DNA of 64,000 bases from Streptomyces wedmorensis (GTDB taxonomy: Bacteria; Actinomycetota; Actinomycetes; Streptomycetales; Streptomycetaceae), in NCBI RefSeq assembly GCF_000716445.1, contig NZ_JNWK01000023.1:1-64000 (forward strand). Reading direction: 5' to 3'. The notes beneath the pieces were generated by a model. It saw only the letters and a program-made list of their open reading frames with translations, made no database searches and was not told the DNA's origin. Position numbers and translations under genes: made by a program. Shown in pieces: positions 6,328 through 32,109 of the stretch; the stretch's first letter is position 1, and each line of letters opens with the position of its first letter.

Positions 6328-6806
6328 TTACCGCAGGCGCGCCATGAGGGCGTGCTCGACGAGCGTGATGAGCGCGCTCTTGGCGTCCGCGCGGTGGCGG
6401 GCGTCGGTGGTGATGATCGGGGTGTCGGGGCCGATCCCTCCGGCTGGTACGGCTGGTGTCCGTCGAAGCCGTTGAGGGCGATGACGAACGGGAGGCCCGA
6501 GTTCTCGAAGTAGTCGACCGCCGGGAAGCAGTCGGCGAGACGGCGGGTGTCGACGAGGACGACGGCGCCGATGGCACCGCGGACCAGGTCGTCCCACATC
6601 GAAGAGGTACAGGATCAGGTCCTGGTCCAGGGTGATGCGGCCGAAGTCCATGGCGACAGTCGTCGTCGTCTTGTCGCCGGTGTGCGTGAGGTCGTCGATG
6701 CCCGCGGAGGCGGACGTCATCACGGCTTCGGTACGCAGCGGGTTGATCTCCGAGACGGCGCCGACGAACGTGGTCTTGCCCACGCCGAAGCCACCCGCCA
6801 CCACGC
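6328..6806 (-). CDS. cvnD: CvnD, Ras-like small GTPase of a conservon (reading frame broken twice and 5' end missing in this sequence)
   Basis: CvnD proteins are about 200-aa GTPases that act with the membrane sensor CvnA. Three blocks can be read on the minus strand. 6806-6600 gives the P-loop GGFGVGKTTF through MDFGRITL to ILYLF. 6599-6437, in another frame, gives MWDDLVRGAIGAVVLVDTRR through the base-recognition-like ALNGFDG. 6436-6328, back in the first frame, gives IGPDTPIITTDARHRADAKS to the stop. The DxxG region usually written GTPGQDRFWF and the helix after HQPYQPE are missing, and so is the true N-terminus. The two internal breaks, and the missing 5' end, abut 99-bp stretches identical to the second operon, so I regard them as assembly losses rather than mutations. 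Confidence 0.85.
6338..6436. repeat. 99-bp exact repeat, copy a1
   Basis: Identical over exactly 99 bp to 11324-11422; bases on both sides differ. A cvnD frame break lies at its right end (6436/6437). Confidence 0.97.
6501..6599. repeat. 99-bp exact repeat, copy b1
   Basis: Identical over exactly 99 bp to 11430-11528; flanks differ. A cvnD frame break lies at its right end (6599/6600). Confidence 0.97.
6708..6806. repeat. 99-bp exact repeat, copy c1
   Basis: Identical over exactly 99 bp to 11648-11746; flanks differ. The missing cvnC tail and cvnD start lie at its right end (6806/6807). Confidence 0.97.
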
Positions 6807-7321
6807 TCGTCGCCGCCCGGCTGGTGGATGGCGACGAGTCCGGCCTCGGCCAGGTCGGCGACGAGGATTCGGGCGACGCCGAGGGGAATGGAGAGAAGAG
6901 CCGAGATCTCCGCGACCGACTTGATCTCGAAGCACAGCCGGCAGATCCGCTGGTGCTCGGGCAACTGCCCCTGCAGCCGGGACGGATCGGCCGTCGTACT
7001 GACCAGCGCCTCGATGGCGAGCTGGTAGCGCGGCCGGGTCCGGCCGCCGGTCATCGCGTAAGGACGCACGAGCGGGTTGTGCCCGCCCGAACCGCCCGCG
7101 GAGGACGGAGCGCGCGAGGCGCTCGGAGAGCCCGCCGCCGTGGACGGGGCGTGGGGCTGCGGGAAGGGCTGTGCCGCGCCCTGTCTGCTGGGGGCGGAGG
7201 GAAAGTTGAACCGGTTGTGCGCGGTGTCGCCCAGCGGCGCCTGGTGCGCGTCATAACCGTTGTAAGGGCTCGCGCCCGGTGGTGTTCCCACGTCTCCTCC
7301 TCCGACTGCCTCGCGGTCCAT
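6807..7321 (-). CDS. cvnC: CvnC, DUF742 protein of a conservon (C-terminus missing in this sequence)
   Basis: About 171 codons before the break. ATG at 7321 with AAGGGA just upstream. Residues 1-80 are a Pro/Ser/Ala/Gly-rich tail. Then comes the DUF742 core: VRPYAMTGGRTRPRYQLAIE, a Cys-containing LPEHQRICRLCFEI, and a winged-helix-like ALLSIPLGVARILVADLAEA. CvnC links the sensor CvnA/CvnB to CvnD. The frame runs on through VAIHQPGGDE and then jumps directly into cvnD P-loop sequence in the wrong frame, so the normal C-terminus and stop codon are absent at 6806/6807. The 62-bp gap to cvnB holds a strong hairpin. Confidence 0.88.
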
Positions 7322-7334
7322 GTCCCTTGGAGCC

Positions 7335-7364
7335 GCGCCACCGCACCTTACGGTGCGGTGGCGC
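7335..7364 (-). other. Intercistronic hairpin between cvnB and cvnC (downstream operon)
   Basis: 13-bp perfect stem gcgccaccgcacc / ggtgcggtggcgc with a TTAC loop, in the 62-bp gap between the cvnB stop and the cvnC start. There is no T-run after it on the minus strand, so partial termination or mRNA processing is more likely than full termination. Confidence 0.7.
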
Positions 7365-7383
7365 GAAACGCACTGTCCGTCTG

Positions 7384-7789
7384 TTAGTTGAGCAGACTTC
7401 CCTGAAGCTCCGCACGGAGGTCAGGAGTCAGTACGGTGCCCGCGCGGTCCACGAGCAGGGCCATCTCGTAGCCCACGAGACCGATGTCGGCCTCCGGGTG
7501 GGCGAGTACGGCCAGCGAGGAACCGTCCGAGATCGACATGATGAAGAGGAAGCCGCGCTCCATCTCCACGACGGTCTGGTTGACCGCACCGCCCTCGAAG
7601 ATCCGGGACGCGCCCGCGGTCAGCGAGGTCAGTCCCGAGGCGACGGCCGCCAGCTGGTCGGCGCGGTCGCGGGGGAACCCCTCGGACATCGCCAGCAGGA
7701 GTCCGTCGGCGGAGACCACCACCGTGTGCGACACCCCGGGGGTGTTGTCCACGAAGTTGGTGATCAACCAGTTCAGATTCTGCGCCGCC
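7384..7789 (-). CDS. cvnB: CvnB, roadblock/LC7 protein of a conservon (first few residues missing; runs in frame with cvnA here)
   Basis: About 135 residues of a usual ~137-140. It begins at AAQNLNWLITNFVDNTPGV (the family normally starts MSQAAQNL or similar) and ends ...LRAELQGSLLN. Roadblock/LC7 proteins are small dimeric regulators of Ras-like GTPases, here presumably CvnD. Motifs include GLLLAMSEGFPRDRADQLAA and LAVLAHPEADIGLVGYEMA. In this sequence the frame is continuous with the end of cvnA, making an apparent CvnA-CvnB fusion. The junction at 7789/7790 is the edge of a 99-bp exact repeat and the paralogous operon is broken at the same base, so the fusion is most likely false. Confidence 0.9.
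7691..7789. repeat. 99-bp exact repeat, copy d1
   Basis: Identical over exactly 99 bp to 12520-12618; flanks differ. The cvnA/cvnB junction lies at its right end (7789/7790). Confidence 0.97.
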
Positions 7790-10700
7790 CCCTGCTGGAC
7801 GCCCCGGCGCAGGTTGCTCAACCTGCCCCGTACGTCCTCGGGAGCGCGGGAGACCTGGGGGCCGCCCTGCGGCGTCTGCTCCGCCGTGCCCTCGACCAGG
7901 TTGGCCTTCGGGACCCGTCGGGGAAGACCGGACGAGGTGACCCCGCCCGCCTTCGGGTCCTTGAGCTTCCCGGCCCGCTGCCAGCGCTCGTCGTTGGTCG
8001 AGCGCCATTCGTCGGAACCGTCGGCTTCGTTCTGCTGTTCCGGCTGCACGGGCTTCGGCTGCTGCGGCGCCTGCTGCGGCACCGGCCGGCCCTGCGGGGC
8101 GACGCTGCCGCGGCGCGGCAGACCGGCGTCGGTCAGCGCGTGGCCGGCATCCGGGACGGGCGTGGGGGCCGGGCCCGGACGGTCGAAGCCTACGCGTTCG
8201 CGGGCCTGTTCGGGAGCGCTCGGAGCAGATTCCGATTCCGCTCCGTACTCCTGGCCGTAGCCGCTCTGGTAAGCGCTCTGATCCGGCCACTCTGCCTGGT
8301 GAGACTGCGGATCGAACGTGTTGCCGTACTGCTGGTGTTCGGTTCCCGGTGTCTCGTACGAAGCTTCCGCATAGGCCTGCTGCGGGTACGCCTCGTAACC
8401 CTGCTGCGGGTACTCGTAGCCGTCCTGCTGCGGGTAGCCGGCCGCGTACTCCTGGCCGTACTCCTGCGCCTGCTGCGGCTGCCCGTAGTCCTGCGCCTGG
8501 TACTGCTCCGCCGGGTACTCCTGCACCGGCTGCGGCGCGTACTCCTGGCCGTACTCCTGGGGCTGCTGCGCGTACTCCTCGGCCTGCTCGGCCTCGTCGC
8601 CGAACAGCGGCCGGTCGCCGGCCTGCGCCTGGGCGCCCAGGGCGGCACGACGCTCCTCGCGGTTCAGCGAGCGGTTGACCGGGTCGAGCTGGAGCTCCTC
8701 CTCGGCCGGCTGCTCGTAGCGCGAGTCGTCGAAGCCGAGGTCGGCGGCGGTCAGCATCTGCTGCTGCGGAGCGGCCTCGAAGGCGTTCTGCTGCTGCCGC
8801 GGAATGATCTGCGAGACGGTGAAGTCGTCCTGGAGCGGCTGCTCGCCGCCACCGCCGTGGGTGATGGCGTCCGGCAGCATGACGAGCGAGGTCGTCCCGG
8901 CCTGCTCGCCCGAGGGACGGAGCTGGACCCGGATGCCGTGCCGGTCGGCCAGCCGGCCGACCACGAAGAGGCCCATGCGCTGCGAGACGGCCGCGTCCAC
9001 GGTCGGCGGGTTGGCCAGCTTGTGGTTGATGTCCGCGAAGTCCTCGGCGGTGAGGCCGATGCCCTTGTCGTGGATCTCGACCATCACACGGCCGTCGGGG
9101 AGACGGGTCGCGGTGACGCGGACCTTGGTCTGCGGGGAGGAGAACGTGGTGGCGTTCTCCAGGAGCTCGGCGAGCAGGTGCACGAGGTCGGTCACGGCCT
9201 GGCCGTGGATCTCGGCGTCCGGGACACCGGCCAGCTCGATGCGCTCGTACTGCTCCACCTCGGAGGAGGCGGCGCGCATGACGTCGACCAGCGGGACCGG
9301 CTGGTCCCAGCGGCGGCCCGGCTCCTCGCCGGCGAGGACGAGGAGGTTCTCGCCGTTGCGGCGCATACGGGTGGCCAGGTGGTCCAGCTTGAAGAGGTTC
9401 TCCAGCTGGTCCGGGTCGGCCTCGTTGTTCTCCAGGTCGGTGATGAGGGTCAGCTGGCCCTCGATCAGCGACTGGTTGCGGCGCGAGAGGTTCGTGAAGA
9501 TCGCGTTGACGTTGCCCCGGAGCATGGCCTGCTCGGCGGCGAGCCGGACGGCCTCGCGGTGGACCTGGTCGAAGGCGCGGGCGACCTCGCCGATCTCGTC
9601 CTGCGTGTCGATCGGGATCGGCTGCACCCGGGTGTCGACCCGGCCGGGCTCGGTACGGGAGAGCTGGTCGACCAGCATCGGCAGGCGCTGCTCGGCGATG
9701 CCGAAGGCGGCGGTCCGCAGCTGCTGCATCGAGCGGCTCATCTGGCGGGCCATCATGCCGGCCAGGATGAAGGCGGCGAGCAGGGCGACGACGACGATGC
9801 CGCCGTTGACCCAGGCGTCCGTCTTGGACTCGTCGGAGATCCGCACGGCCTCGGCCACGGCCTTGTCGACGAGGGCCTTCTCGACCTCGGTGTAGCCCTC
9901 GAACTTGGCGGTGGCGACGGCCATCCAGGTCTCGGCCGTGATGCCCTTGGACTTCAGGGCGGCCAGGCCGTCCGGGTCCTTGGCGGTGCCGATGGCGGAG
10001 GCCACGCCCGAGTAGACGGAGCCGTCCTTGCCCTTCGGCAGCTCGACGCCGGCGGCCTGCATCTGCTTCGCGCCGTCGGCGGCCTTGCCCGCCATGACCT
10101 TCTTCAGCAGCTCGACGTCCTCGGGCATGCCGCCGGAGCTGAACTCGCCGAGGGCGATCTGCTCCAGGTAGTTGTACGAGTTGAACGCCACGGACTGCTG
10201 GGCGAAGACCGTCTCCTGGCGGCTGGGCCGGACCAGGAGCTGGGTGCCGATGGAGCGCTGGAGGGACTCGGCGCCCTTGGCCAGCTGGACCGCGTAGACG
10301 CTGCGGCCGTAGCTGGTGACGTTGCCGGTGCCCAGTCCGAGCTCGTTGGAGAACTCGGTGAGGTAGTGCTGGACCGAGGTGTACCCGAGCTGGGTGTTCA
10401 CCGGGTCGAGGGAGCGCGTGTACGCGGCCTTGCGGAGCGCGTCGAGCTTGGGCTCCTCGTCCTTGAACAGGCGCAGACGGCGCTCCAGGCCCTGCCCCGA
10501 GGGGAGGTTCTTGGCGGCCTCGTCGAACTTGGCGCGGGCGGCGTCGGTGGCGGCGTACGCCTGCGTCACCTCGTCGCTCTTGCGGTCCTCGGCCGACTTC
10601 GCGGCGAGCAGGGGAGCGGCGGTCAGGTCCCGCTCGTTGAGCAGGGCGGTGCTGTACTCCGAGGCGGCGCGCACGATGAGCGCCGTCTTCTCGGCGTCCT

Positions 10701-10962
10701 GCGCCTCCTGCCAGGTGTCGATGGACCCCTTGACCTGGAAGCCGCCCATGACGAGGCCGACGAGCACGGGTATGAGGAGGATCGCGTTCAGCCTGGTCGG
10801 CACCCGCCAGTTGCGGGGCGAGAGCTTGCTGGTGCTGCCCGTGGCGGCCGCGGTGGGCGGCGGCGTCACGGGCACGTCCGCGGGCGACATCGCCGCACGC
10901 GACGGCGGGGTGAAGTTGCCCCGCGCCTCCTGCTCCGCGGAGCTTTCCTTGCTGCGCCTCAC
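7790..10962 (-). CDS. cvnA: CvnA, membrane sensor kinase-like protein of a conservon (stop codon missing in this sequence)
   Basis: About 1057 codons before the junction. The start is GTG at 10962 (MRRSKESSAEQEARGNF), with gagagg upstream. Domains: cytoplasmic N-tail; membrane helix at about 59-77; extracellular nitrate/nitrite-sensing-type helical domain at about 80-380; second membrane helix at about 385-405; HAMP linker with coiled coil; histidine-kinase ATPase domain with N-box LLAELLENAT (near 600) and EIHDKGIGL (near 628); then a low-complexity tail rich in Gln, Tyr, Glu and Pro. CvnA proteins resemble histidine kinases but work with CvnB-D rather than a normal response regulator. By position this looks like cvn2 of S. 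coelicolor (from memory). Sequence after GRLSNLRRGVQQG, including the stop, is lost. Confidence 0.92.
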
Positions 10963-11313
10963 TCGACCAACAACCTCTCGGCGTCGGCACCTACGTTGTG
11001 CCGGTGTTTCGTTCAGGGCCGTACTACTCGGGAGTTCATGAATTGCAGCACGTGAAGGGGGTCCCTTCCAAACAGTGGGACAGACCCTCTTCTCGTGATC
11101 CGGACCGCACGTAAAACGGGCATAAAGAGCGAGCCCCGCCAAATGGCGGGGCTCAGGTGAGCGCAGTGACACCGATCGGATGCGTCGGGTGTCCGGGGCG
11201 CCCCAATTCTCTGTCGAAACGTTATGAACGGGAGGGCGGTCGTGTCGAAGGACACAGACGGCCGCCGGCAGGGGCATATGACAGGTGCCCCGGCCGGTCC
11301 CCGCTCCGTCGTC
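10963..11313 (-). other. Intergenic region between the two conservons
   Basis: 351 bp. It holds the terminator of the upstream cvn operon (11131-11154) and must hold the promoter of the downstream one, since cvnA starts at 10962. A small hairpin, cggcac-N7-gtgccg (10985-11003), lies 23-41 nt before the cvnA start codon, in its leader. I see no clear -35/-10 pair and no additional gene. Confidence 0.5.
11131..11154 (-). terminator. Terminator of the upstream cvn operon
   Basis: 11-bp perfect stem gagccccgcca / tggcggggctc with a 2-nt AA loop (4-nt if the A-T closing pair opens). On the minus strand it is followed by gctctttatg. It lies 160 bp beyond the cvnD stop. Confidence 0.75.
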
Positions 11314-11746
11314 CTACTTGAGCCGCGCCATGAGGGCGTGCTCGACGAGCGTGATGAGCGCGCTCTTGGCGTCCGCGCGGTGGCGGGCGTCGGTGGTGAT
11401 GATCGGGGTGTCGGGGCCGATCGGCCGCTGTTCTCGAAGTAGTCGACCGCCGGGAAGCAGTCGGCGAGACGGCGGGTGTCGACGAGGACGACGGCGCCGA
11501 TGGCACCGCGGACCAGGTCGTCCCACATGTCCGGGCGTACCGAAGAGGTACAGGATCAGATCCTGGTCCAGCGTGATGCGGCCGAAGTCCATCGCCACCG
11601 TGGTGGTCGTCTTCCCACCGGTGTGCGTGAGGTCGTCGATGCCCGCCGAGGCGGACGTCATCACGGCTTCGGTACGCAGCGGGTTGATCTCCGAGACGGC
11701 GCCGACGAACGTGGTCTTGCCCACGCCGAAGCCACCCGCCACCACG
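11314..11746 (-). CDS. cvnD: CvnD, Ras-like small GTPase, second conservon (reading frame broken twice and 5' end missing in this sequence)
   Basis: Paralogue of the gene at 6328-6806 with the same three readable blocks. 11746-11529 gives GGFGVGKTTF to ILYLFGTPG. 11528-11423, in another frame, gives MWDDLVRGAIGAVVLVDTRR to YFENS. 11422-11314 gives IGPDTPIITTDARHR to the stop TAG. More of the centre is missing than in the other copy: everything from ENSG to IGPD, including the ALNGFDG motif. The breaks fall at exactly the same repeat edges. It is very unlikely that two paralogues decayed independently at the same bases, so the genomic gene is probably intact. Confidence 0.85.
11324..11422. repeat. 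99-bp exact repeat, copy a2
   Basis: Partner of 6338-6436. A cvnD frame break lies at its right end (11422/11423). Confidence 0.97.
11430..11528. repeat. 99-bp exact repeat, copy b2
   Basis: Partner of 6501-6599. A cvnD frame break lies at its right end (11528/11529). Only 7 bp separate it from copy a2, against 64 bp between a1 and b1. Confidence 0.97.
11648..11746. repeat. 99-bp exact repeat, copy c2
   Basis: Partner of 6708-6806. The missing cvnC tail and cvnD start lie at its right end. Confidence 0.97.
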
Positions 11747-12055
11747 GCCGGCCTCCGCCAGGTCGGCGACGAGGATCCTCGCGACGCCGAGCGGCATCGA
11801 GAGGAGGGCCGACACCTCGGCGACCGACTTGACCTCGCGGCACAGGTGGCAGATCCGCTGGTGCTCGGGCAGCAGCGTGGCGAGGTGTGCCGGGTCGGCC
11901 GTGGTGCTGACCAGCGCCTCGATGGCGAGCTGGTAGCGCGGCCGGGTCCGGCCGCCGGTCATCGCGTAAGGACGCACCAGCGGCTGGTCGCCCTCATGTC
12001 CGTACTCGTCGACTGAGGCGCCGTACGGATCGTGAGAGGCGGGGGGCGGGGTCAT
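11747..12055 (-). CDS. cvnC: CvnC, DUF742 protein, second conservon (C-terminus missing in this sequence)
   Basis: About 103 codons before the break. ATG at 12055 with an excellent GGAGGA 5 nt upstream. It has a short N-tail (about 27 residues, against about 80 in the other copy), then the DUF742 core VRPYAMTGGRTRPRYQLAIE, LPEHQRICHLCREV and ALLSMPLGVARILVADLAEA. The frame then jumps into cvnD P-loop sequence at 11746/11747, so even LVAIHQPGG, kept in the other copy, is gone. Role as for the other CvnC: adaptor between CvnA/B and the GTPase. Confidence 0.87.
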
Positions 12056-12143
12056 GAATCCTCCGGGCGTGACAGCAAACTCTCTGCCGTCTGATGGGGC
12101 CGGTGGGGGGCCGGGTGGGGCGGCCGGACGGTGAACGGTGACG

Positions 12144-12169
12144 GGGCGGTACGGAGGGGCGTACCGCCC
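12144..12169 (-). other. Intercistronic hairpin between cvnB and cvnC (upstream operon)
   Basis: 10-bp perfect stem gggcggtacg / cgtaccgccc with a 6-nt loop in the 157-bp cvnB-cvnC gap. It is a different sequence from the hairpin at 7335-7364 but in the equivalent position of the paralogous operon. Confidence 0.6.
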
Positions 12170-12212
12170 TGTCGGTCAGTCGTTTCGGATTGGCTGTCCG
12201 GTGCAGGACCGG

Positions 12213-12618
12213 CTAGTGGAGCAGGCTGCCCTGGAGCTCCGCACGGAGATCCGGGGTGAGCACGCTGCCGGCCCGGTCGACCAGCAGCGCCATCTCGTAG
12301 CCCACGAGGCCGATGTCGCACTCGGGGTGGGCGAGTACGGCCAGCGAGGAACCGTCGGAGACCGACATGAGGAAGAGGAAGCCGCGCTCCATCTCCACCA
12401 CCGTCTGGGCGACGGGTCCGCCCTCGAAGATCCGGGACGCGCCCGCGGTCAGCGAGGTCAGTCCGGATGCGACCGCCGCCAGCTGGTCGGCGCGGTCGCG
12501 GGGGAATCCTTCGGACATGGCCAGCAGGAGTCCGTCGGCGGAGACCACCACCGTGTGCGACACCCCGGGGGTGTTGTCCACGAAGTTGGTGATCAACCAG
12601 TTCAGATTCTGCGCCGCC
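12213..12618 (-). CDS. cvnB: CvnB, roadblock/LC7 protein, second conservon (5' end missing in this sequence)
   Basis: About 135 residues from AAQNLNWLITNFVDNTPGV to ...LRAELQGSLLH and TAG at 12213. Nearly identical to the CvnB at 7384-7789, with changes such as GPVAQTVVEM for GAVNQTVVEM. Its start codon is missing at the 99-bp repeat edge 12618/12619, and upstream sequence joins in a different frame from cvnA. It is predicted to regulate the CvnD GTPase as a dimer. Confidence 0.9.
12520..12618. repeat. 99-bp exact repeat, copy d2
   Basis: Partner of 7691-7789. The cvnA/cvnB junction lies at its right end (12618/12619). Confidence 0.97.
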
Positions 12619-15600
12619 TCAGCCGGCCGCGGACGTCGTCGGGTGCACGCGAGACCTGAGGGCCGGCCGTGTGGGCCTGCTCCTGCGCGGTCCCGGGTAC
12701 GAGGTTGGCCTTCGGCACGCGCCGGGGAAGACCGGAGGTGGTGACGCCGCCGGCCGCGGGCTTGCGCACCCGCTCGGCCTGGCGCACCAGCTCGTCGTTG
12801 GGCGAGGTCCGCCATGCGGCCGCGCCGTTCTGCCGGCCGCCGTCGGCGGGCGCCGGGGCGGACGGCTGGGCGACGACCGGGGTCTGCGTCGTCTGCGCCA
12901 CGTCCGCCGGCGCCTGCTGCTGGGCCTGCTGGGCCTGGTCCTGGTGGAACCAGTTGGTCTCCAGCGTGTCGTACAGCGGGGTACGACCGTCACCGGTACC
13001 GGCCGGCGGCAGTGCCTCCGGACGGCGCGGCTGCTGGAGCGCCGGCTGCTGCGGCCCGGACTCGCCGCCGGTCCGCTGCCGCGGAGCCGGGGCCTGCGCC
13101 TGCGCCTGCTGCGGAGCCTGCTGGGCCTGCGGTACGAAGGGCTGCCGGCCGAACTGCTGCTGCTGGCCGCCCTGGTACCCCTGCGGAGCCTGCCGGCCCT
13201 GCTGCGGGGCCTGCTGCGGAGCCGTCTGCGGGGCGCCGAAGTCCGGGCGCGGGAACTGGCCGGTGGAGCCGGGACCCTGCGGCGCGTCGAAGTCCGGGCG
13301 CGGGAACTGGCCGGTGGAGCCGGGACCCTGCGGGGCGCCGAAGTCCGGGCGCGGGAACTGCGCCGTCGACGCCGGGTCCTGGACACCGCCCTGGTACCCC
13401 TGCGGCGCCGGACGGCCCTGGAGGGGACGACCCTGCTGCGGAGCCGCCTGCGGGGCGCCGAAGTCGGGGGCCGGGAACTGGCCGGTGGAGCCGGGACCCT
13501 GCGGAGCGCCGAACAGGCCGGCCGCCTCCGGGTCCTCGTGGCCGCGCGGGGCGTCCAGCGGGGACATCTCCTGCTGCGGGCGGCGCACCGGCTGCTGCGC
13601 CGGGTCGTTGCCCCAGCTCGCGGCCTGCGGGCGCTGCGGCTGCGGGTTGCCACCCGGCAGCTCGGCGCGCGGGAAGTCGTAGCCGCCGGGCTGGTCGCCC
13701 TGCGGGGTCTGACCCTGCGGGGCGTGCTGCGGCGCGCCGGGGCCGGCCGGTCGGCCGGTCTGGCCGCCGCCCTGGTTGCCCTGGTTGCCCTGGTTGCCCC
13801 ACACGTCCGTACGGGACGGGATGGCGCTGGCCGCGCCGCCGATGAGACCGCCGCCACCGGGGCCCGGGCGCAGCGCGTCCGGGTTCTGCGGGGCCTGCGG
13901 CGTCTGCGGCAGCTGACCGGTCTGGTCGAACTGCGCGTTCTGCGGCTGCGGGGTGCGCGACTGCGGGGCGCCCTGCGGAGCACCGTCACGGGCGGGCAGC
14001 GCGGCCCGGGGACCGCTCGTGCCGACCTGACCGCGCGCGGCACCGGCACCGACCCGTCCGGCCGCCGCCGACGGGGCGCCGCCCGGACGTCCACCGCCGG
14101 GGCCACCGGTCGCGCCGGGACCGCCGGGGAGCCGGCCGCCGGGGGCGGAGGCACCCTGCGGCATCGCGCCCTGGCCGCCCGCGCCCGGCTTGGGCATCGG
14201 CTTCTTGCCGCCCTGGGCGACGTCGACCGGGAGCATGACGAGCGCGGTGGTGCCGCCCGAGTCCGAGGGGCGCAGCTGGATGCGGATGCCGTGTCGCAGG
14301 GACAGGCGGCCGACCACGAAGAGACCCATGCGGCGGGAGACCGAGACGTCCACGGTGGGCGGCGAGGCGAGCCGCTCGTTGATCGCGGCGAGGTCCTCGG
14401 GGGAGAGGCCGATGCCGGTGTCGTGGATCTCGACGAGCACGCGGCCGTCGGGCAGCGCGTGACCGGTGACCCGGACCTTCGTCTGCGGCGAGGAGAACGA
14501 GGTGGCGTTCTCGAGCAGCTCGGCGAGGAGGTGCACGAGGTCGTTGACGACCCGGCCGGCGACCTCGGTCGCCGGGACCGCGGCCAGTTCGATGCGCTCG
14601 TACTGCTCCACCTCGGAGGCGGCGGCACGGAGGACGTCGACCAGCGGGACCGGGCGGGTCCACCGGCGGCCCGGCTCCTCGCCGGCGAGGACGAGGAGGT
14701 TCTCGCCGTTCCGGCGCATACGGGTCGCGAGGTGGTCGAGCTTGAAGAGCGAGGAGAGCTGGTCCGGGTCGGCCTCGCGCGACTCCAGTTCGGAGATGAG
14801 CGACAGCTGACGCTGGATGAGGCCCTGGGAACGGCGCGAGAGGTTGGTGAACATCGCGTTGACGTTGCCCCGGAGGAGGGCCTGCTCGGCGGCGAGGCGG
14901 ACGGCCTCGCGGTGCACGTCGTCGAAGGCCGCGGCCACCTGGCCGATCTCGTCCCGGGAGTGCACACCGACGGACTCGACGGAGGTGTCGACGTCCTGCG
15001 GGTCGGACTCGGAGAGCTGCTTGACGAGCTCGGGCAGACGGTCCTGGGCGACCTTGGTCGCGGTGTCCTGGAGGCGGCGCAGCGAGCGGATCATGGACCG
15101 GGCCACGACGAAGGCGCCGATGAGCGAGACGCCGAGGACGAGCAGGATCAGCGCACCGTTGATGATGGCCTCGCGCTGCGACTCCTGGCGCAGCTCACGG
15201 GCCATCGTCTCCATGTCGCCGAGGAGGCCGTCCTCGATGACGTTCATGGCGTTGATCTTGATGCCGTACTCGTCGGTGAAGTTCAGGTGACCGCGGCGGG
15301 TGCCGCCCGGCATGGCGTCGTCCGCGTTCAGCACGCGCTCGGCGTACTTGTCGGCGGCGACGATCGACGGGTTGGCACCGGTCAGGGACGCGGTCCGCTC
15401 GGCGGCGTCGCCACCGGTCGACTCGTAGATCGCCTGGAACGACTTGAACTCGACGCCCTCACTGTTGAGCGCGGCGTCGGCGTACAGGCGGTCACCCTGC
15501 TGGATGCGGCCCGGGGTCTTGTCGTTCGGCGGGAGCGCGGCGGCGATGATCGCCTGCTGGATGGAGGCGTACTCCTTGGCGGACGAGAACGCGGCGAGCG

Positions 15601-16405
15601 CGCGGGTCCGCTTGATCATCTCCGGGTTGCTGGTCGCCTGCGCCATGTCCTGGGACAGGCTGAGCAGCGAGCGGATGAGACGGCTGTACGCCTCGACCGT
15701 CACCGAGTGGGCGACGCCCTTCTCGTAGGCGTTGCCGCGGATGGTGTTGAGCTGGATGACCTGGGAGGCGATCTGGCTGACGTTCTGGCGGATGCTCCGC
15801 AGCGCCTCGTCGCCCTCGGTGGTCGGGATGTCCTCGGTGGCGTCGAGGAAGGCCTTGTACTCGCGGTCCGTCTTCCGGCGCGGGTTGGCGACCTGGTAGT
15901 CGCTGACCGGGCGGCCGTTGGCCAGCGGACCGGCGGACAGGTCGCGCTCGGACTGCAGCGCCTGCGCGAGGTCGGTCGCCTCACGGGTCAGCTTGGTGAG
16001 CAGCTGCATGTGGTCGAGCTGCTCCATGTCCTGGAGCGACTCGCTGATACGGATGCCGCCCAGGGTGGTCGCCGCCACCACGGGAAGGGTGAGGAGGGCG
16101 ACGAGGCGCGTGGAGATGCGCCAGTTGCGCAGCGCTATTCGCGGGCCGACCTCGTTCTCGGAACGGGGCTTGGCGGGGGCGGCCGCCGGTTCGGCGGGCG
16201 CGGCCTTGCCGCTCGTCCTGCCGCCCGCGCGCCTGCCGCCGCCGTCGCCGGCCTCGCCGGCCGGGCCCTGACCCTGGTTCGGGGTGTGCGGGGCCGAGGG
16301 ACCGCGGTCGGTCCCGGCGCGCGGTTCCTGCTCCGCCTGAGCTTCCGCTCGGCTCTGGCGGGCCTGGGGAGACCCCGAGCCATCCCTCTTGAAACGTCCC
16401 TGCAC
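12619..16405 (-). CDS. cvnA: CvnA, membrane sensor kinase-like protein, first conservon (C-terminus missing in this sequence)
   Basis: About 1262 codons before the junction. GTG start at 16405 (MQGRFKRDG), overlapping the stop of a possible short upstream frame (TAGTG). Layout: charged and Pro-rich N-tail to about 95; membrane helix at about 100-118; nitrate/nitrite-sensing-type periplasmic helices; membrane helix at about 412-435; HAMP; kinase-like ATPase domain with LLAELLENAT and EIHDTGIGL; then a roughly 500-residue Pro/Gln/Gly-rich tail holding 17-residue repeats. It ends at DDVRGRL and shifts frame at 12618/12619, so the last residues and stop are lost. By position next to the FAH gene and gltX it corresponds to cvnA1 of S. 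coelicolor (from memory). Confidence 0.92.
13237..13389 (-). repeat. Tandem 51-bp (17-residue) repeats in the CvnA tail
   Basis: Units start at 13237, 13288 and 13339, exactly 51 bp apart. They encode GPGSTGQFPRPDFGAPQ-type peptides; the third is partly diverged (DPASTAQFPRPDF). A fourth, looser copy is at about 13460-13510. In-frame repeats of this kind can change number without breaking the gene. Confidence 0.85.
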
Positions 16406-16973
16406 TAGCGTCGCAACCTTTTGACCAGGCGTCCTTCCGGGTGAACGGAGCGGACGGTGTCGGCGTCGTCGGGGTACGTGGCGTACCCCAGGTGGTCATC
16501 GGTGACCGGCGCAGTTCCCCCTTCCCCGCCACTCGGCCGGCGCTGTTGCGCCTCCTCTGCGCGCCGGCTTGTGAACCCGCGGCGGTGCGTGGAATTCCAG
16601 CACAGTGCCGGATCTCCAACAAGGGCCGCGTGTCGCACTGTGAGGGGAATGACAACCTGTGCACGAAGTGTCACCCCATGTAGAAGATGATCACGGAGGA
16701 TTCGGACTTTTGCCCTCGAATGGTTTGCGGTGTTCGTGTGTCCCAGTCGGCATGATCAGGAGCGGAATAGAGCATTCAGTGGCGGAATGTCCCTTTCCGT
16801 AGTGACCGGCAACAGTCCGTAATGCCTGGAATGTGCGTCAACGGGTGAGCAAACTCACACGCGAATCGATGTCTCAGCCATGCATTCGAAGGGAATCGCA
16901 TGTTTAGCCTGACGCTTTACACCCCTTCGCGCCCGCACGGGCGCCCGTCCCGGAACAAGGGCTGATCACCGCG
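16406..16973. other. Divergent intergenic region upstream of cvnA
   Basis: 568 bp, clearly less GC-rich than its surroundings from about 16610 to 16910, as expected for regulatory DNA. It holds an 8-bp hairpin ggggtacg-tgg-cgtacccc at 16471-16489 (leader of cvnA on the minus strand) and a small gtgag-caaa-ctcac hairpin at 16845-16858. It should carry the cvn promoter and that of the small gene at 16974. I see no confident -35/-10 and no good gene. Confidence 0.5.
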
Positions 16974-17177
16974 ATGAACACGACGACGCTCCGCACCACG
17001 GCCAACCCGCGCCGCTCCACCCTCGCCCACCTCGCGGACGCCGCACAGCTCGGCCGGGGCGCCCAGCCGGAGTACGCGGCGGAACTGCCGGGCAACACGG
17101 CCAACCCGCGCCGCACCGTCCTGATGCAGGCCCCGGCCCCCTACGAGCCGCAGCCGTACGCCAGCGCCTCCCGCTGA
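16974..17177 (+). CDS. 67-aa small protein with a duplicated TANPRR motif
   Basis: I do not recognise the family. The ATG at 16974 has aaggg about 13 nt upstream, a long spacing. The peptide contains TANPRRSTL (residues 9-17) and TANPRRTVL (42-50), exactly 33 residues apart. The matching DNA (16997-17015 and 17096-17114) is a 19-bp identical direct repeat. Between them lies a small Ala/Gln/Gly-rich linker; the C-terminus is Pro/Tyr-rich. There is no signal peptide, membrane helix or Cys. Third codon positions are strongly G/C, which supports coding. The short length and repeated motif allow a peptide precursor or a small regulator, but no modifying enzyme is adjacent. The gene downstream is the FAH-family enzyme, 119 bp away. 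Confidence 0.65.
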   Translation: MNTTTLRTTANPRRSTLAHLADAAQLGRGAQPEYAAELPGNTANPRRTVLMQAPAPYEPQPYASASR

Positions 17178-17296
17178 CCCGACCGGCCCCCGCCCGCCTC
17201 ATCCGCCCCGGTGATATCGCCGGTCGGCCGCCCCCGCGCCGCGTTAGCCTGGAGCGTCAGACTCCAGCCAGTACCAAGTGAGGGGCGACAGCACTC

Positions 17297-18082
17297 GTGC
17301 GCATCGCCAGATTCTCCATCGACGGCAATGTGGCCTTCGGCGCCGTCGAGGGCGAGGGAACCGTCGAGTCCGGCGGCCTCGTCCTCGACATCATCAAGGG
17401 CATCCCGTACACCGACTTCGAGCTCAGCGGCACCAAGGTCCCGCTGAGCAAGGTACGGCTCCTGCCGCCCGTGCTCCCCAACAAGGTCGTGGCCATCGGC
17501 CGCAACTACGCCGAGCACGCCGCCGAACTCGGCAACGAGGTCCCCGACGTCCCCGTCGCCTTCTTCAAGCCCACCACCTCGGTGATCGGCTCCGGCGACG
17601 CCATCGAGTACCCCTCCTTCTCCAACGAGCTGCACCACGAGGCCGAACTGGCCGTGGTCATCGGCCGCATGTGCCGTGAGGTGCCCCGCGAGCGCGTGAA
17701 GGACGTCGTCTTCGGCTACACCTGCGCCAACGACGTCACCGCCCGCGACGCCCAGCAGCGCGAGAAGCAGTGGGCCCGCGCCAAGGGCTTCGACACCTCC
17801 TGCCCCCTGGGCCCCTGGGTGGAGACCGACCTCGACCCGAGCGACCTGGCCATCCAGGCCACGGTCAACGGCGAACAGCGCCAGCTGGGTCGTACGAGCG
17901 ACATGATCCGCTCCATCGAGGACCTGGTCGTCCACATCACCGAGGCCATGACGCTGCTCCCCGGCGACGTCATCCTCACCGGCACCCCCGCCGGGGTCGG
18001 CCCCCTCAACGTCGGCGACGAGGTCGCCGTCACCATCGAAGGCATCGGCACTCTCACCAATAAGGTGATCAAGCGTGGCTAA
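17297..18082 (+). CDS. Fumarylacetoacetate hydrolase (FAH) family protein
   Basis: 261 aa. FAH-fold enzymes cleave or decarboxylate beta-keto or acylpyruvate acids with a divalent metal; the exact substrate cannot be told from sequence. Typical motifs are present: AIGRNYAEHAAE (about 70), the metal-binding HHEAEL (about 115), GYTCANDVTARD (about 140), and GDVILTGTPAGVGP near the C-terminus. Start GTG at 17297 with aggggcgac upstream. The stop overlaps the gltX start by 8 bp, so the two genes are translationally coupled; this coupling of a small-molecule hydrolase with a tRNA synthetase is seen in other actinobacteria (from memory). Confidence 0.9.
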   Translation: MRIARFSIDGNVAFGAVEGEGTVESGGLVLDIIKGIPYTDFELSGTKVPLSKVRLLPPVLPNKVVAIGRNYAEHAAELGNEVPDVPVAFFKPTTSVIGSGDAIEYPSFSNELHHEAELAVVIGRMCREVPRERVKDVVFGYTCANDVTARDAQQREKQWARAKGFDTSCPLGPWVETDLDPSDLAIQATVNGEQRQLGRTSDMIRSIEDLVVHITEAMTLLPGDVILTGTPAGVGPLNVGDEVAVTIEGIGTLTNKVIKRG

Positions 18083-19550
18083 CGCGAACATCCGCGTCCG
18101 TTTCTGTCCCTCGCCGACCGGCAACCCCCACGTGGGCCTGGTCCGCACCGCCCTCTTCAACTGGGCCTTCGCCCGGCACAACGAGGGCACGTTCGTCTTC
18201 CGCATCGAGGACACCGACGCCGCGCGCGACTCGGAGGAGTCGTACCAGCAGCTGCTCGACTCGATGCGCTGGCTCGGATTCACCTGGGACGAGGGCCCCG
18301 AGATCGGCGGCCCGCACGCGCCGTACCGCCAGTCGCAGCGGATGGACATCTACAAGGACGTCGCCGACAAGCTGCTCGCCGGCGGCTACGCGTACCCCTG
18401 CTACTGCACCGCCGAGGAGCTCGACGAGCGCCGCGAGGCCGCCCGCGCCGCCGGCCGCGCCTCCGGCTACGACGGCCACTGCCGCGACCTCACCGACGAG
18501 CAGAAGCAGGCCTACGAGGCCGAGGGCCGCAGCCACATCGTCCGCTTCCGGATGCCGGACGAGGCGACCACCTTCACCGACCTGGTCCGCGGCGAGATCA
18601 CCGTCCAGCCGGAGAACGTCACCGACTACGGCATCGTCCGCGCCAACGGCGCCCCGCTGTACACCCTGGTGAACCCGGTCGACGACGCCCTGATGGAGAT
18701 CACCCACGTCCTGCGCGGCGAGGACCTGCTCTCCTCCACCCCGCGCCAGATCGCGCTCTACAAGGCGCTGATCGAGCTGGGCGTCGCCAAGGAGATCCCG
18801 CAGTTCGGCCACCTGCCGTACGTCATGGGCGAGGGCAACAAGAAGCTCTCCAAGCGCGACCCGCAGGCCTCCCTCAACCTCTACCGGGAGCGCGGCTTCC
18901 TCCCCGAGGGCCTCCTGAACTACCTGTCGCTCCTCGGCTGGTCGTTCTCCGCCGACCAGGACGTCTTCTCGATCGAGGACATGGTCGCGAAGTTCGACAT
19001 CGCCGACGTGAACGCCAACCCGGCGCGCTTCGACCTCAAGAAGGCCGAGTCGATCAACGGCGACCACATCCGCATGCTGGACGTGAAGGCCTTCACCGAG
19101 GCCTGCGAGCCCTGGCTGCGGGCCCCGCACGCCGACTGGGCGCCCGAGGACTTCGACCGCGCCGCCTGGGAGGCCATCGCGCCGCACGCCCAGACCCGCA
19201 TCACCGTCCTTTCGGACATCACGGCCAACGTCGACTTCCTCTTCCTCCCGGAGCCGGTCTTCGACCAGCCCTCGTGGGACAAGGCGATGAAGGGCGAGCC
19301 GGCCGCGCTGCTCACCACGGCCCGCGAGAAGCTCGTGGACGCCGACTGGAGCGACCCCGAGTCGCTGAAGAACGCGGTCCTGACCGCCGGCGAGGCCCAC
19401 GGCCTCAAGCTCGGCAAGGCCCAGGCCCCGGTCCGCGTCGCGGTCACCGGCCGCACGGTCGGCCTGCCCCTCTTCGAGTCCCTGGAGATCCTGGGCAAGG
19501 AGCGGACCCTGACCCGCATCGACGCGGCGCTGGCGAAGCTCGCCGCGTAA
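18075..19550 (+). CDS. gltX: Glutamyl-tRNA synthetase
   Basis: 491 aa, normal bacterial length. It charges tRNA-Glu with glutamate; in bacteria without a glutaminyl-tRNA synthetase it also mischarges tRNA-Gln for correction by GatCAB. HIGH-type signature PSPTGNPHVG (about 9-18) and KMSKS-type KLSKRDP (about 256-262) are intact. CYCTAEELDERR followed by a downstream CRDL matches the class-I connective region. The start GTG at 18075 lies inside the end of the FAH gene, with aaggtgatcaag as the ribosome binding site. A HAD phosphatase and then three Glu and two Gln tRNA genes follow. Confidence 0.97.
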   Translation: MANANIRVRFCPSPTGNPHVGLVRTALFNWAFARHNEGTFVFRIEDTDAARDSEESYQQLLDSMRWLGFTWDEGPEIGGPHAPYRQSQRMDIYKDVADKLLAGGYAYPCYCTAEELDERREAARAAGRASGYDGHCRDLTDEQKQAYEAEGRSHIVRFRMPDEATTFTDLVRGEITVQPENVTDYGIVRANGAPLYTLVNPVDDALMEITHVLRGEDLLSSTPRQIALYKALIELGVAKEIPQFGHLPYVMGEGNKKLSKRDPQASLNLYRERGFLPEGLLNYLSLLGWSFSADQDVFSIEDMVAKFDIADVNANPARFDLKKAESINGDHIRMLDVKAFTEACEPWLRAPHADWAPEDFDRAAWEAIAPHAQTRITVLSDITANVDFLFLPEPVFDQPSWDKAMKGEPAALLTTAREKLVDADWSDPESLKNAVLTAGEAHGLKLGKAQAPVRVAVTGRTVGLPLFESLEILGKERTLTRIDAALAKLAA

Positions 19551-19602
19551 GGGATTCCGCCGTCGGGGCCCGGGCGTAGGGGCCGCGCGCTACGGTCGTT
19601 CC

Positions 19603-20322
19603 ATGACCATCCGCGCGGTCCTCTGGGACGTCGACGACACGATCTTCGACTACGCCCGCGCCGACCGCGTCGGCATGAGCGAGCACCTGACGGCCGAGGG
19701 CCTGGTGGACGGATACGACTCCGTCGACCAGGCCCTCCGTCGTTGGCGGGAGCTGACCGCGCTCCACTGGCGCCGCTTCGAGGCCGGCGGGGTCGACTTC
19801 CAGGACCAGCGCAGGGAGCGCGTCCGGGACTTCCTGGGGCAGCCGCTGACCGCCGCCGAGGCCGACGACTGGTTCGAGCGGTACGTGGCGCGGTACGAGG
19901 CCGCCTGGGAGCTCTTCCCCGACGCGGTGCCCGTGCTCGACCTGCTGGCCCGTGACTACCGTCACGGGATCCTGTCGAACGCCAGCATCCACAACCAGGA
20001 GCGCAAGCTCCGGGTCCTGGGCGTGCGCGACCGTTTCGAGGCCGTCCTGTGCGCCGCCGAGCTCGGTGTCGCCAAGCCGGCCCCGGAGGCCTTCCACGCC
20101 GCCTGCGCCGCCCTTGACCTGCCCCCGCACCAGGTGGCGTACGTCGGGGACCAGCCGGACATCGACGCGCGCGGTGCCGTGGAGGCGGGGCTCCTGGGCA
20201 TCTGGCTGGACCGCGCGGGCACCGGCGGCCGCCCCGAGCTGAACCGGATCACGGGCCTCCATCAGCTCCCCGGCCTGCTGGGCGGGCATACCCGTTTTGG
20301 AGCACCGTCCACCTTCGGGTAA
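19603..20322 (+). CDS. HAD-superfamily hydrolase (phosphatase-like)
   Basis: 239 aa. Motif I DVDDTIFDY (residues about 9-17) carries the nucleophilic Asp and the +2 acid/base Asp. Motif II is ILSNAS, motif III is K of GVAKPAPEAF, and motif IV is VGDQPDIDARGA. A helical cap of about 80 residues (C1 type) lies between motifs I and II, as in YjjG/phosphoglycolate phosphatase-like enzymes. The substrate is unknown; small phosphorylated metabolites are usual. It starts 52 bp after gltX. The stop codon TAA overlaps the -10 element of the tRNA promoter. Confidence 0.88.
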   Translation: MTIRAVLWDVDDTIFDYARADRVGMSEHLTAEGLVDGYDSVDQALRRWRELTALHWRRFEAGGVDFQDQRRERVRDFLGQPLTAAEADDWFERYVARYEAAWELFPDAVPVLDLLARDYRHGILSNASIHNQERKLRVLGVRDRFEAVLCAAELGVAKPAPEAFHAACAALDLPPHQVAYVGDQPDIDARGAVEAGLLGIWLDRAGTGGRPELNRITGLHQLPGLLGGHTRFGAPSTFG

Positions 20323-20325
20323 TGT
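20297..20325 (+). promoter_or_regulatory. Promoter of the Gln/Glu tRNA cluster
   Basis: TTGGAG (20297-20302), a 17-bp spacer and TAATGT (20320-20325): a good match to the main sigma factor consensus, about 90 bp before the first tRNA. It overlaps the end of the HAD gene. Confidence 0.65.
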
Positions 20326-20416
20326 TCTTTCTGCGCCGAGGGGAACAAGCCGAAAGGCAAGAACCCGGAAAGCGCAAGCCGAGCAAGATCCTCCCTGGTG
20401 GGGGACGTTGTCACGG

Positions 20417-20488
20417 TGGCCTATGGTGTAATTGGCAGCACGACGGTTTCTGGTTCCGTTAGTCTTGGTTCGAGTCCAGGTAGGCCAG
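20417..20488 (+). tRNA. tRNA-Gln (CUG), copy 1
   Basis: 72 nt. Acceptor TGGCCTA pairs with TAGGCCA, discriminator G, anticodon CTG in the loop TTCTGGT, T-loop GGTTCGAGTCC. CCA is not encoded. Five tRNA genes follow one another as Gln-Glu-Glu-Gln-Glu. Confidence 0.95.
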
Positions 20489-20511
20489 CTCGCAGAGCTT
20501 TATCTGCAACC

Positions 20512-20528
20512 TGTGGATGGCATCCACA
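20512..20528 (+). other. Inter-tRNA hairpin, Gln1-Glu1 spacer
   Basis: tgtggat-ggc-atccaca, a 7-bp stem just before the Glu gene. A structural counterpart with a different sequence is at 20869-20883. Possible processing signal. Confidence 0.5.
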
Positions 20529-20530
20529 AA

Positions 20531-20603
20531 GCCCCCGTTGTGTAGCGGCCTAGCACGCCGCCCTCTCAAGGCGGTAGCGCCGGTTCGAATCCGGTCGGGG
20601 GTA
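20531..20603 (+). tRNA. tRNA-Glu (CUC), copy 1
   Basis: 73 nt. Acceptor GCCCCCG / CGGGGGT, anticodon stem CCGCC/GGCGG around CTCTCAA (anticodon CTC), T-arm CCGGTTCGAATCCGG, discriminator A, no encoded CCA. Confidence 0.95.
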
Positions 20604-20687
20604 CAGATCCATCCTGCGGATCACCTGGGTAGCTCCCGGTGCATTCGCGGTGACATCACCCGGCGCATGCCGGGTGGGATCGCTAGG

Positions 20688-20760
20688 GCCCCCGTTGTGT
20701 AGCGGCCTAGCACGCCGCCCTCTCAAGGCGGTAGCGCCGGTTCGAATCCGGTCGGGGGTA
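20688..20760 (+). tRNA. tRNA-Glu (CUC), copy 2
   Basis: Identical to the copy at 20531-20603. The 84-bp spacer before it carries a perfect hairpin cacccggc-gcat-gccgggtg. Confidence 0.95.
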
Positions 20761-20774
20761 CGGTGCAACCACCA

Positions 20775-20846
20775 TGGCCTATGGTGTAATTGGCAGCACG
20801 ACGGTTTCTGGTTCCGTTAGTCTTGGTTCGAGTCCAGGTAGGCCAG
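20775..20846 (+). tRNA. tRNA-Gln (CUG), copy 2
   Basis: Identical to the copy at 20417-20488. The first bases after it (ctcgcagagct) are also conserved, so the Gln-Glu unit looks duplicated. Confidence 0.95.
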
Positions 20847-20868
20847 CTCGCAGAGCTCATCTGCAACA

Positions 20869-20883
20869 GCGGATCTGATCCGC
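20869..20883 (+). other. Inter-tRNA hairpin, Gln2-Glu3 spacer
   Basis: gcggatc-t-gatccgc, a 7-bp stem, at the same place as the hairpin at 20512-20528 but with changed bases. Confidence 0.5.
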
Positions 20884-20886
20884 GAG

Positions 20887-20959
20887 GCCCCCGTTGTGTA
20901 GCGGCCTAGCACGCCGCCCTCTCAAGGCGGTAGCGCCGGTTCGAATCCGGTCGGGGGTA
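20887..20959 (+). tRNA. tRNA-Glu (CUC), copy 3
   Basis: Identical to the two other Glu genes. It is the last of the cluster and is followed 9 nt later by a terminator. Confidence 0.95.
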
Positions 20960-20968
20960 CAAATCGAG

Positions 20969-20996
20969 GAAGCCCTTCCCTTCGGGGGAGGGCTTC
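20969..20996 (+). terminator. Terminator of the tRNA cluster
   Basis: 12-bp stem gaagcccttccc / ggggagggcttc (one G-T pair) closed by a TTCG tetraloop, followed by ttcgctgtt. Confidence 0.85.
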
Positions 20997-21105
20997 TTCG
21001 CTGTTCGGTGCCGTACGCGGAACCCCGACCGCACGCGGACACAACTCCGGCCCACCGCTGCGGCGTTGAAGCGGTGGGCCGGGACGAACAGAGGGACGGA
21101 GCAGG

Positions 21106-21822
21106 TCAGCCGTTGCGGCGGAGCGCCTCGGAGAGACGGGCGGCGGCGTCGATGACCGCCTGGGCGTGCATACGGCCCGGGTGGCGCGTCAGGCGCTCGA
21201 TGGGACCCGAGACCGACACGGCGGCCACCACGCGGTTCGAGGGGCCCCGTACGGGCGCGGAGACGGACGCGACGCCCGGCTCCCGCTCGCCGATCGACTG
21301 GGCCCAGCCGCGGCGCCGTACGCCCGACAGGGCCGTCGCGGTGAAGCGGGCGCCCTGGAGGCCGCGGTGCAGCCGCTCGGGCTCCTCCCAGGCCATCAGG
21401 ATCTGCGCCGAGGAGCCGGCCTTCATGGTCAGCGTCGAGCCGACCGGCACGGTGTCCCGCAGGCCCGAGAGCCGCTCGGCCGCCGCCACGCAGATGCGCA
21501 TGTCACCCTGCCGGCGGTAGAGCTGGGCGCTTTCGCCGGTGACGTCGCGCAGATGCGTCAGCACGGGGCCGGCGGTCGCGAGCAGGCGGTCCTCGCCGGC
21601 CGCGGCCGCGAGCTCCGAGAGGCGCGGTCCGAGGATGAACCGGCCCTGCATGTCACGCGCCACCATCCGGTGGTGCTCCAATGCCACGGCCAGTCGGTGT
21701 GCCGTGGGTCGTGCGAGTCCCGTCGCCGCGACCAGTCCTGCGAGGGTGGCCGGACCGGACTCCAGGGCGCTCAGGACAAGGGCTGCCTTGTCGAGAACGC
21801 CTACGCCGCTAGAGTTGTCCAT
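21106..21822 (-). CDS. ndgR: IclR-family regulator NdgR
   Basis: 238 aa, the known NdgR length. It controls branched-chain amino acid genes (leuCD in particular) and links them to nitrogen source and antibiotic production in Streptomyces. The N-terminal winged helix spans about 8-70 (LAGLVAATGLARPTAHRLAV recognition region) and the C-terminal effector domain about 80-238. I chose ATG 21822 (MDNSSGVGVLDKA) because it gives the family start, although the frame is open further upstream. It is divergent from leuC over a 140-bp region that holds a candidate operator. Confidence 0.93.
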   Translation of the reverse strand: MDNSSGVGVLDKAALVLSALESGPATLAGLVAATGLARPTAHRLAVALEHHRMVARDMQGRFILGPRLSELAAAAGEDRLLATAGPVLTHLRDVTGESAQLYRRQGDMRICVAAAERLSGLRDTVPVGSTLTMKAGSSAQILMAWEEPERLHRGLQGARFTATALSGVRRRGWAQSIGEREPGVASVSAPVRGPSNRVVAAVSVSGPIERLTRHPGRMHAQAVIDAAARLSEALRRNG

Positions 21823-24462: not shown

Positions 24463-25167
24463 GTGAACAAGGCGCAGCTCGTAGAAGTGATTGCCGACAA
24501 GATGGGCGGTCGCCAGCAGGCCGCCGAAGCCGTCGACCACGTGCTCGACGCCATCGTGCGTGCCGTGGTCGCCGGCGACCGGGTCTCGGTCACGGGCTTC
24601 GGCTCGTTCGAGAAGGTCGACCGTCCGGCCCGCTACGCCCGCAACCCCCAGACGGGTGAGCGCGTGCGGGTCAAGAAGACCTCGGTCCCGCGCTTCCGTG
24701 CAGGTCAGGGCTTCAAGGACCTGGTCAGCGGCTCGAAGAAGCTCCCCAAGGGAGGCGAGGTCTCCGTCAAGAAGGCCCCCAAGGGCAGCCTCACCGGTGG
24801 CGCCTCCGCGACGGTGAAGAAGGCCGCCGCGAAGAAGGCCACCACCGCCAAGAAGGCCGCCGCGAAGAAGGCGATGCCGGCGAAGAAGACCACGACGACG
24901 GCCGCCGCGAAGAAGGCGACGCCGGCGAAGAAGACCACCACGGCCGCCGCGAAGAAGGCGACGCCGGCGAAGAAGACCGCCACCACGGCCGCCGCGAAGA
25001 AGGCGACCCCCGCCAAGAAGGCCACCACGGCCGCCGCCAAGAAGGTCACCAAGGCCGCGGCGAAGAAGACCGCGCCGGCGGCCAAGAAGGCCACGGCGAC
25101 GAAGGCGCCCGCCAAGAAGACGACGGCGCGCAAGACGACCGCCAAGAAGGCCGCCGCCAAGAAGTAA
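24463..25167 (+). CDS. hupS: HupS, HU-type nucleoid protein with a Lys/Ala-rich histone H1-like tail
   Basis: 234 aa. Residues 1-92 are a complete HU fold (MNKAQLVEVIADKM start, GFGSFEKVDRPAR arm region, RNPQTGERV DNA-binding arm). Residues about 110-234 are AAKKA/TPAKK repeats like a histone H1 tail. This two-part protein is the sporulation-associated HU of Streptomyces, which compacts spore DNA. GTG start at 24463 with gaaggggaag 3 nt upstream. The tail DNA is itself repetitive (gccgcgaagaaggcg units), so repeat number may vary between strains. Confidence 0.95.
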   Translation: MNKAQLVEVIADKMGGRQQAAEAVDHVLDAIVRAVVAGDRVSVTGFGSFEKVDRPARYARNPQTGERVRVKKTSVPRFRAGQGFKDLVSGSKKLPKGGEVSVKKAPKGSLTGGASATVKKAAAKKATTAKKAAAKKAMPAKKTTTTAAAKKATPAKKTTTAAAKKATPAKKTATTAAAKKATPAKKATTAAAKKVTKAAAKKTAPAAKKATATKAPAKKTTARKTTAKKAAAKK

Positions 25168-29242: not shown

Positions 29243-29272
29243 GCACGGCGGAACACCCGGTCCGGAGTGCGG

Positions 29273-32077: not shown

Positions 32078-32109
32078 AAAGGCCGGTTCACCTAGGTGAA
32101 CCGGCCTTT
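32078..32109. terminator. Bidirectional terminator between thiD and rpmB
   Basis: 32-bp perfect palindrome (arms aaaggccggttcacct / aggtgaaccggccttt) between convergent genes, with an A-run before and a T-run after. Confidence 0.9.

Follow-up and report, generated by a model that had tools for sequence, protein, structure and literature searches.

The first 64,000 nucleotides (nt) of the 188,771-bp contig NZ_JNWK01000023.1 of Streptomyces wedmorensis (hereafter the window) carry two tandem conservon operons, each with remains of cvnA, cvnB, cvnC, and cvnD, in which the coding sequence breaks at eight points at the edges of repeats of exactly 99 bp. We are close to certain that all eight breaks arose as errors when short reads were assembled by the de Bruijn method at k=99. 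This judgment was reached because the exact repeats in the sampled part of the assembly cluster at 99 bp, because 99-mers recur at contig ends, because similar right-edge losses occur in polyketide synthase (PKS) contigs, and because the same defect is found in seven other public assemblies. The interpretation advanced in a first-pass annotation of the window, namely, an error in joining contigs at k=99, is supported by these four lines of evidence. Accordingly, three features of the deposited sequence are most probably not real, a consequence that it had also drawn: the fusion of CvnA with CvnB, the frameshifts in cvnD, and the missing ends of cvnC and cvnD.

The identity of the two operons was established by a Pfam domain search of the window (NIT, HATPase_c, Robl_LC7, DUF742, and ATP_bind_1), in which both presented the conservon order, i.e., the CvnA kinase, the Robl_LC7 protein CvnB, the DUF742 protein CvnC, and the GTPase CvnD, with CvnD matched only piecewise in each. 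Operon 1 is probably of the cvn2 type and operon 2 of the cvn1 type, an assignment that we presume from their order. In excerpts from one published report, CvnA1 and CvnA2 correspond to SCO5544 and SCO5540, which fits a tandem (PMC9739842). Intact open frames for all four genes are present in the relatives and absent from the window as deposited, where both operons are out of frame. Six other conservons of the same assembly are unbroken, each with a cvnD that gives one match of 169 to 175 codons, and lack such 99-bp repeats.

Every maximal exact direct repeat of at least 25 bp in the window was listed by script. The inter-operon repeats comprise four of exactly 99 bp, as the first-pass annotation had reported, and eight others of 27 to 71 bp, so that all those over 71 bp are 99 bp long (4/4). 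Three of its four coordinate pairs were right, and the third had to be moved by one base in operon 1, where 6708-6806 had been given (Table 1). Each of the eight copies has a disruption of the coding sequence at its right edge, and the jumps in frame or content described there turned out to be deletions with respect to related strains, directly to the right of each copy. Losses of about 29 and 17 nt had been estimated at 6599/6600 and 11528/11529, and both figures proved exact; the unequal loss between the two operons at the same joint likewise holds at all four joints. The eight breaks at 99-bp repeats are thus confirmed as an observation. The fusion of CvnA and CvnB in operon 1 appears because 85 nt are missing to the right of 7691-7789. 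No Ns occur within the window. The 71-bp stretch, claimed to be without a break, is indeed spanned by alignments with the locus of a close relative (L030) at 6806-7789 and 11737-12619.

Table 1. Coordinates of the two conservon operons, of the repeats that they share, and of the sequence absent beside each repeat
Feature	Position in window	Strand	Remarks
Conservon operon 1	6334..11277	-	cvnA, cvnB, cvnC, cvnD remains; Pfam domains; intact in relatives
False CvnA-CvnB fusion reading frame, operon 1	7384-11277	-	
Conservon operon 2	11320..16405	-	cvnA, cvnB, cvnC, cvnD remains; Pfam domains; intact in relatives
99-bp repeat 1, operon 1 copy, in cvnD	6338..6436		19 nt absent on right
99-bp repeat 1, operon 2 copy, in cvnD	11324..11422		76 nt absent on right
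99-bp repeat 2, operon 1 copy, in cvnD	6501..6599		29 nt absent on right
99-bp repeat 2, operon 2 copy, in cvnD	11430..11528		17 nt absent on right
99-bp repeat 3, operon 1 copy, cvnD start	6707..6805		102 nt of cvnC-cvnD junction absent on right
99-bp repeat 3, operon 2 copy, cvnD start	11648..11746		132 nt of cvnC-cvnD junction absent on right
99-bp repeat 4, operon 1 copy, cvnB start	7691..7789		85 nt of cvnA-cvnB junction absent on right
99-bp repeat 4, operon 2 copy, cvnB start	12520..12618		112 nt of cvnA-cvnB junction absent on right
71-bp shared stretch	6999..7069		pairs with 11907-11977; shorter than k, unbroken; internal control

A DNA search of 31 genomes (the S. wedmorensis assembly and 30 relatives) retrieved two close relatives, G015, which consists of one contig, and G004; in both, the best-matching stretches show 90-95% identity. 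The loci of these genomes (L030 and L031, respectively) align along both operons, and the window shows gaps at the eight joints, with the missing sequence present in both relatives at 8/8 joints. The number of missing nt was placed by anchored comparison with L030, L031, and a third locus, L032. The same deletion sizes were obtained from L030 and L031 at all eight joints, and the more distant L032 concurs at six, yielding 138 for 132 nt and 88 for 85 nt at the other two. In both close relatives, cvnA, cvnB, cvnC, and cvnD are separate and open in each operon, with a cvnD of 193 codons; the comparison with a closely related complete genome that had been proposed as a check has its nearest equivalent here in the single-contig G015, where both operons are intact. 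More broadly, 25 of the 26 cvnD copies in 13 genomes with tandem operons match residues 1-179 unbroken and the remaining copy matches residues 13-179, and the deletions of the window were seen, by these cvnD matches, in none of the 13. The tandem loci of the relatives contain exact repeats of 537 bp (L030) and of 239 and 201 bp (L031), and the longest in L032 is 81 bp.

The signature of the assembler is not confined to the conservons. For the repeat spectrum of the assembly (9,378,363 bp in 259 contigs), we sampled 614,694 bases (including 2,500 N), which is roughly 6.5% of the genome and covers the window, six further conservon loci, seven PKS-linked stretches, and a set of 40 contigs picked by number alone (C90-C109, C111-C124, C126-C128, and C130-C132, of which C124 reads N). 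Exact-repeat pairs number 25 at 99 bp and at most six at any other length of at least 60 bp, with four pairs of 100-102 bp and none beyond 102 bp; the window and the PKS contigs account for 12 of the 99-bp pairs, and the number-picked contigs are involved in the other 13. Furthermore, the terminal 99-mer recurs in the sample at 29 of 86 contig ends, versus 2 of 20,000 random internal 99-mers. The contigs are numbered almost by length, being out of order in 14 of the 45 tested (one, C124, unreadable), and an internal repeat of 99-102 bp occurs in 8 of the 14 out-of-order contigs versus 2 of the 31 in-order ones (p 0.0005), which hints that the joining of contigs took place after they had been numbered.

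Losses to the right of a 99-102 bp repeat were also found in the PKS contigs. In particular, about 183 nt are absent at L055:3605, where three paralogous stretches concur, about 270 nt at L052:4461 (one paralogous stretch), and about 198 nt at L052:4861 (two paralogous stretches). The four PKS contigs C125, C129, C133, and C138 (L052, L053, L054, and L055) show similar right-edge losses together with contig ends that carry shared 99-mers, and the PKS gene models in this assembly are therefore unreliable.

The same error could be recognized in other public assemblies. Public species genomes were scanned for CvnA, and of the 588 loci the 80 best were analysed; among these, 36 have at least two full cvnD genes, 16 have a contig end inside cvnD, and 10 have some other partial cvnD. 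In seven of these 10 (L120, L128, L138, L156, L169, L178, and L185), inter-operon repeats of 99, 100, or 101 bp lie at the break. These seven actinomycete assemblies bear similar contig titles (of the form contigN.1 or P404contig10.1) and no Ns, and in all of them both cvnD copies are broken, at around 14700-15200 and 19700-20300 of the locus. Read as deposited, 14/14 copies lack the codons that directly follow the right edge of the repeat. The side of the loss is informative mainly because of L138, which alone of the seven was deposited with its genes reversed, the window and the other six having them on the minus strand; in both L138 copies the loss is again on the right. Thus, the loss follows the printed direction of the contig, as a biological process would not. 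At other loci with inter-operon repeats over 60 bp, the lengths are assorted, e.g., 440, 362, and 239 bp; exact repeats of 239, 201, and 98 bp were measured in the tandem pair of L113, 440 bp in L136, and 167, 117, 116, and 92 bp in L146.

Three loci with a partial cvnD (L124, L171, and L160) were kept out of the seven. L160 has no repeat over 59 bp, and its second cvnD is cut off by the contig end. In L124 (Streptomyces sp. Root431, 14830-20636) and L171 (Streptomyces sp. t39, 14647-21790), cvnD is in disorder, with repeat copies of 125/99/98 bp and 299/299/130/128 bp, respectively, and Ns nearby, which suggests that assemblers of different kinds go wrong at this site.

In de Bruijn assemblies, adjacent contigs share k bases at branch points. 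We propose that the strain itself most likely has two intact tandem conservons, in which cvnD and neighbouring stretches would share identity over more than 99 bp. Because of the k-base overlap, a contig running into such a repeat would stop after exactly 99 repeat bases. In a later step of joining or gap closing, the left contig would then have been kept whole, the start of the right contig cut back, and the two abutted without Ns, so that the repeat interior and some unique sequence would have been lost just to the right of each 99-mer. In the window, the left side retains its 99 repeat bases whole and the right side resumes late. The first-pass annotation had suggested that contigs ending in a shared 99-mer were joined and the repeat interior dropped; the former part agrees with our data, the latter is too narrow, as unique sequence was lost too. 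In fact, at joint 4 (cvnA-cvnB) the two operons of the relatives share only eight bases beyond the 99-mer, although the losses there amount to 85 and 112 nt, and the join must therefore have trimmed unique sequence as well, unequally in each operon.

Some observations weigh against a k=99 joining error, or at least against its simplest form. The losses differ between the operons and, at joint 4, exceed the repeat interior, neither of which a plain trimming of the k overlap predicts. Such trimming would remove the repeat length minus k from both copies alike, which is the case at none of the four joints, and equal k-trimming is contradicted as the joining rule; plain overlap trimming is thus insufficient, and the right contig must have been shortened beyond it. 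Four of the sampled repeats measure 100-102 bp, for which chance matches past the joint are a candidate explanation. One cvnD copy of L138 has a further break, near 20047, that coincides with the right edge of no repeat found there. Moreover, when the five contigs chosen for their PKS genes are set aside, the association with numbering falls to 3 of 9 out-of-order contigs versus 2 of 31 (p 0.07). A rule for the amounts lost was sought and none was found, and when the alignments were inspected by eye, neither overlap nor microhomology was seen at the joints. The readable assembly contains no near-identical copy of the lost stretches, and for the missing cvnC-cvnD stretch the best it offers is a partial match of 48 bases at 79% in another conservon; 13 short contigs (200 to 1,260 bases) and C124 (2,500 bases) read as N and may hold one.

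If the deposited sequence were taken at face value, both operons would be decaying pseudogenes with real deletions, produced by slipped or unequal recombination at the repeats. That both are out of frame as deposited is what such decay would give. However, recombination between repeats removes one copy together with the interval, and here all eight 99-bp copies are kept; the losses abut one side only, the deletions recur in none of the 13 genomes, and the exact 99 bp, the 99-mers at contig ends, and the dependence of the side on the deposited orientation are left without an explanation. On account of the eight retained copies, the one-sided loss, and the 99-bp signature, we rejected this explanation, which we consider highly improbable. 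We give even less credence to the hypothesis that short tracts of gene conversion between the operons produced the 99-bp identities and that separate mutations caused the breaks. It would accord with the concerted evolution of cvnD within many genomes, described below, but offers no reason for 99 bp in four of four cases when exact repeats in other tandem pairs have assorted lengths, and it was rejected on this ground. The two processes can be told apart: the long identity was probably made by conversion, and its cut at 99 bp is the work of the assembler.

Concerted evolution was examined in 12 of the 13 tandem genomes (loci L030-L032, L191-L194, and L196-L200), leaving out G012, whose second cvnD is only 75% identical. 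The mean third-position identity of cvnD is 85.8% within a genome, whereas comparisons between genomes give 74.6% for operon 1 and 72.5% for operon 2. The corresponding values are 69.2 versus 68.8 and 66.5% for cvnB, and 68.4 versus 82.5 and 79.1% for the part of cvnA compared. Judged by nucleotide identity, 16/24 cvnD, 4/24 cvnB, and 0/24 cvnA genes have their closest relative in the other copy of the same genome. This comparison of identities gives good support to the view that the cvnD genes of the tandem pair evolve in concert in many genomes and cvnA does not, probably by gene conversion. The conversion looks episodic, because within-genome cvnD identity ranges widely, from 100% (G015) down to 68.7% (G011), and because the pattern is not universal, G007, G011, and G013 grouping by operon in the cvnD tree. 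It is possible to hypothesize, with the chances evenly balanced, that conversion keeps cvnD near-identical while cvnA diverges, so that two receptors would feed what is in effect one G protein. As concerted evolution gives identities longer than k, cvnD would be a recurrent breaking point in assemblies of this kind. No work joining conservons with gene conversion was found in the open-licence literature.

Besides the repeats shared by the operons, the window contains a cluster of direct repeats of 74-83 bp (20417-20961), adjoining direct repeats of 28-39 bp (24898-25007), repeats of 33-46 bp in the low-complexity-coding part of the operon 2 cvnA (13226-13504), and perfect palindromes of 32 bp (32078-32109) and 26 bp (29262-29287).

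The breaks described here should be annotated neither as pseudogenes nor as a fusion of CvnA with CvnB. This is a systematic error, which affects at least seven further public assemblies, and the estimated completeness of the present one, 99.99%, gave no warning of it. False frameshifts will enter the counts when conservons, PKS genes, and other recent duplicates are surveyed in such drafts. Inspecting the exact repeats for their length spectrum is a simple way to expose the error. Moreover, the locus suggests that a bacterial G-protein gene is evolving in concert between two receptors. Neither a description of the fixed-side, N-free pattern of loss nor a paper on the sequencing project of the similar assemblies was found in the open-licence literature.

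According to excerpts from a study of short-read bacterial drafts, unresolvable repeats break or corrupt the assembly and sit at contig ends, with coding sequences misannotated (PMC5771137). Our case resembles the repeat-induced misassembly described in those excerpts in that the repeats are too long to be resolved, lie at contig ends, and lead to misannotated coding sequences; different from it, the repeats are here barely longer than k, the joins are silent and without Ns, and the loss falls on a fixed side. As to the system itself, the two operons resemble the cvn1/cvn2 kind of conservon of Streptomyces coelicolor, with a NIT sensor kinase, a roadblock protein, a DUF742 protein, and a small GTPase in this order, and with two operons in tandem on one strand. 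As deposited, they differ from conservons in that cvnD is frameshifted in both operons and cvnA and cvnB look fused in operon 1, differences that we judge to be errors of assembly.

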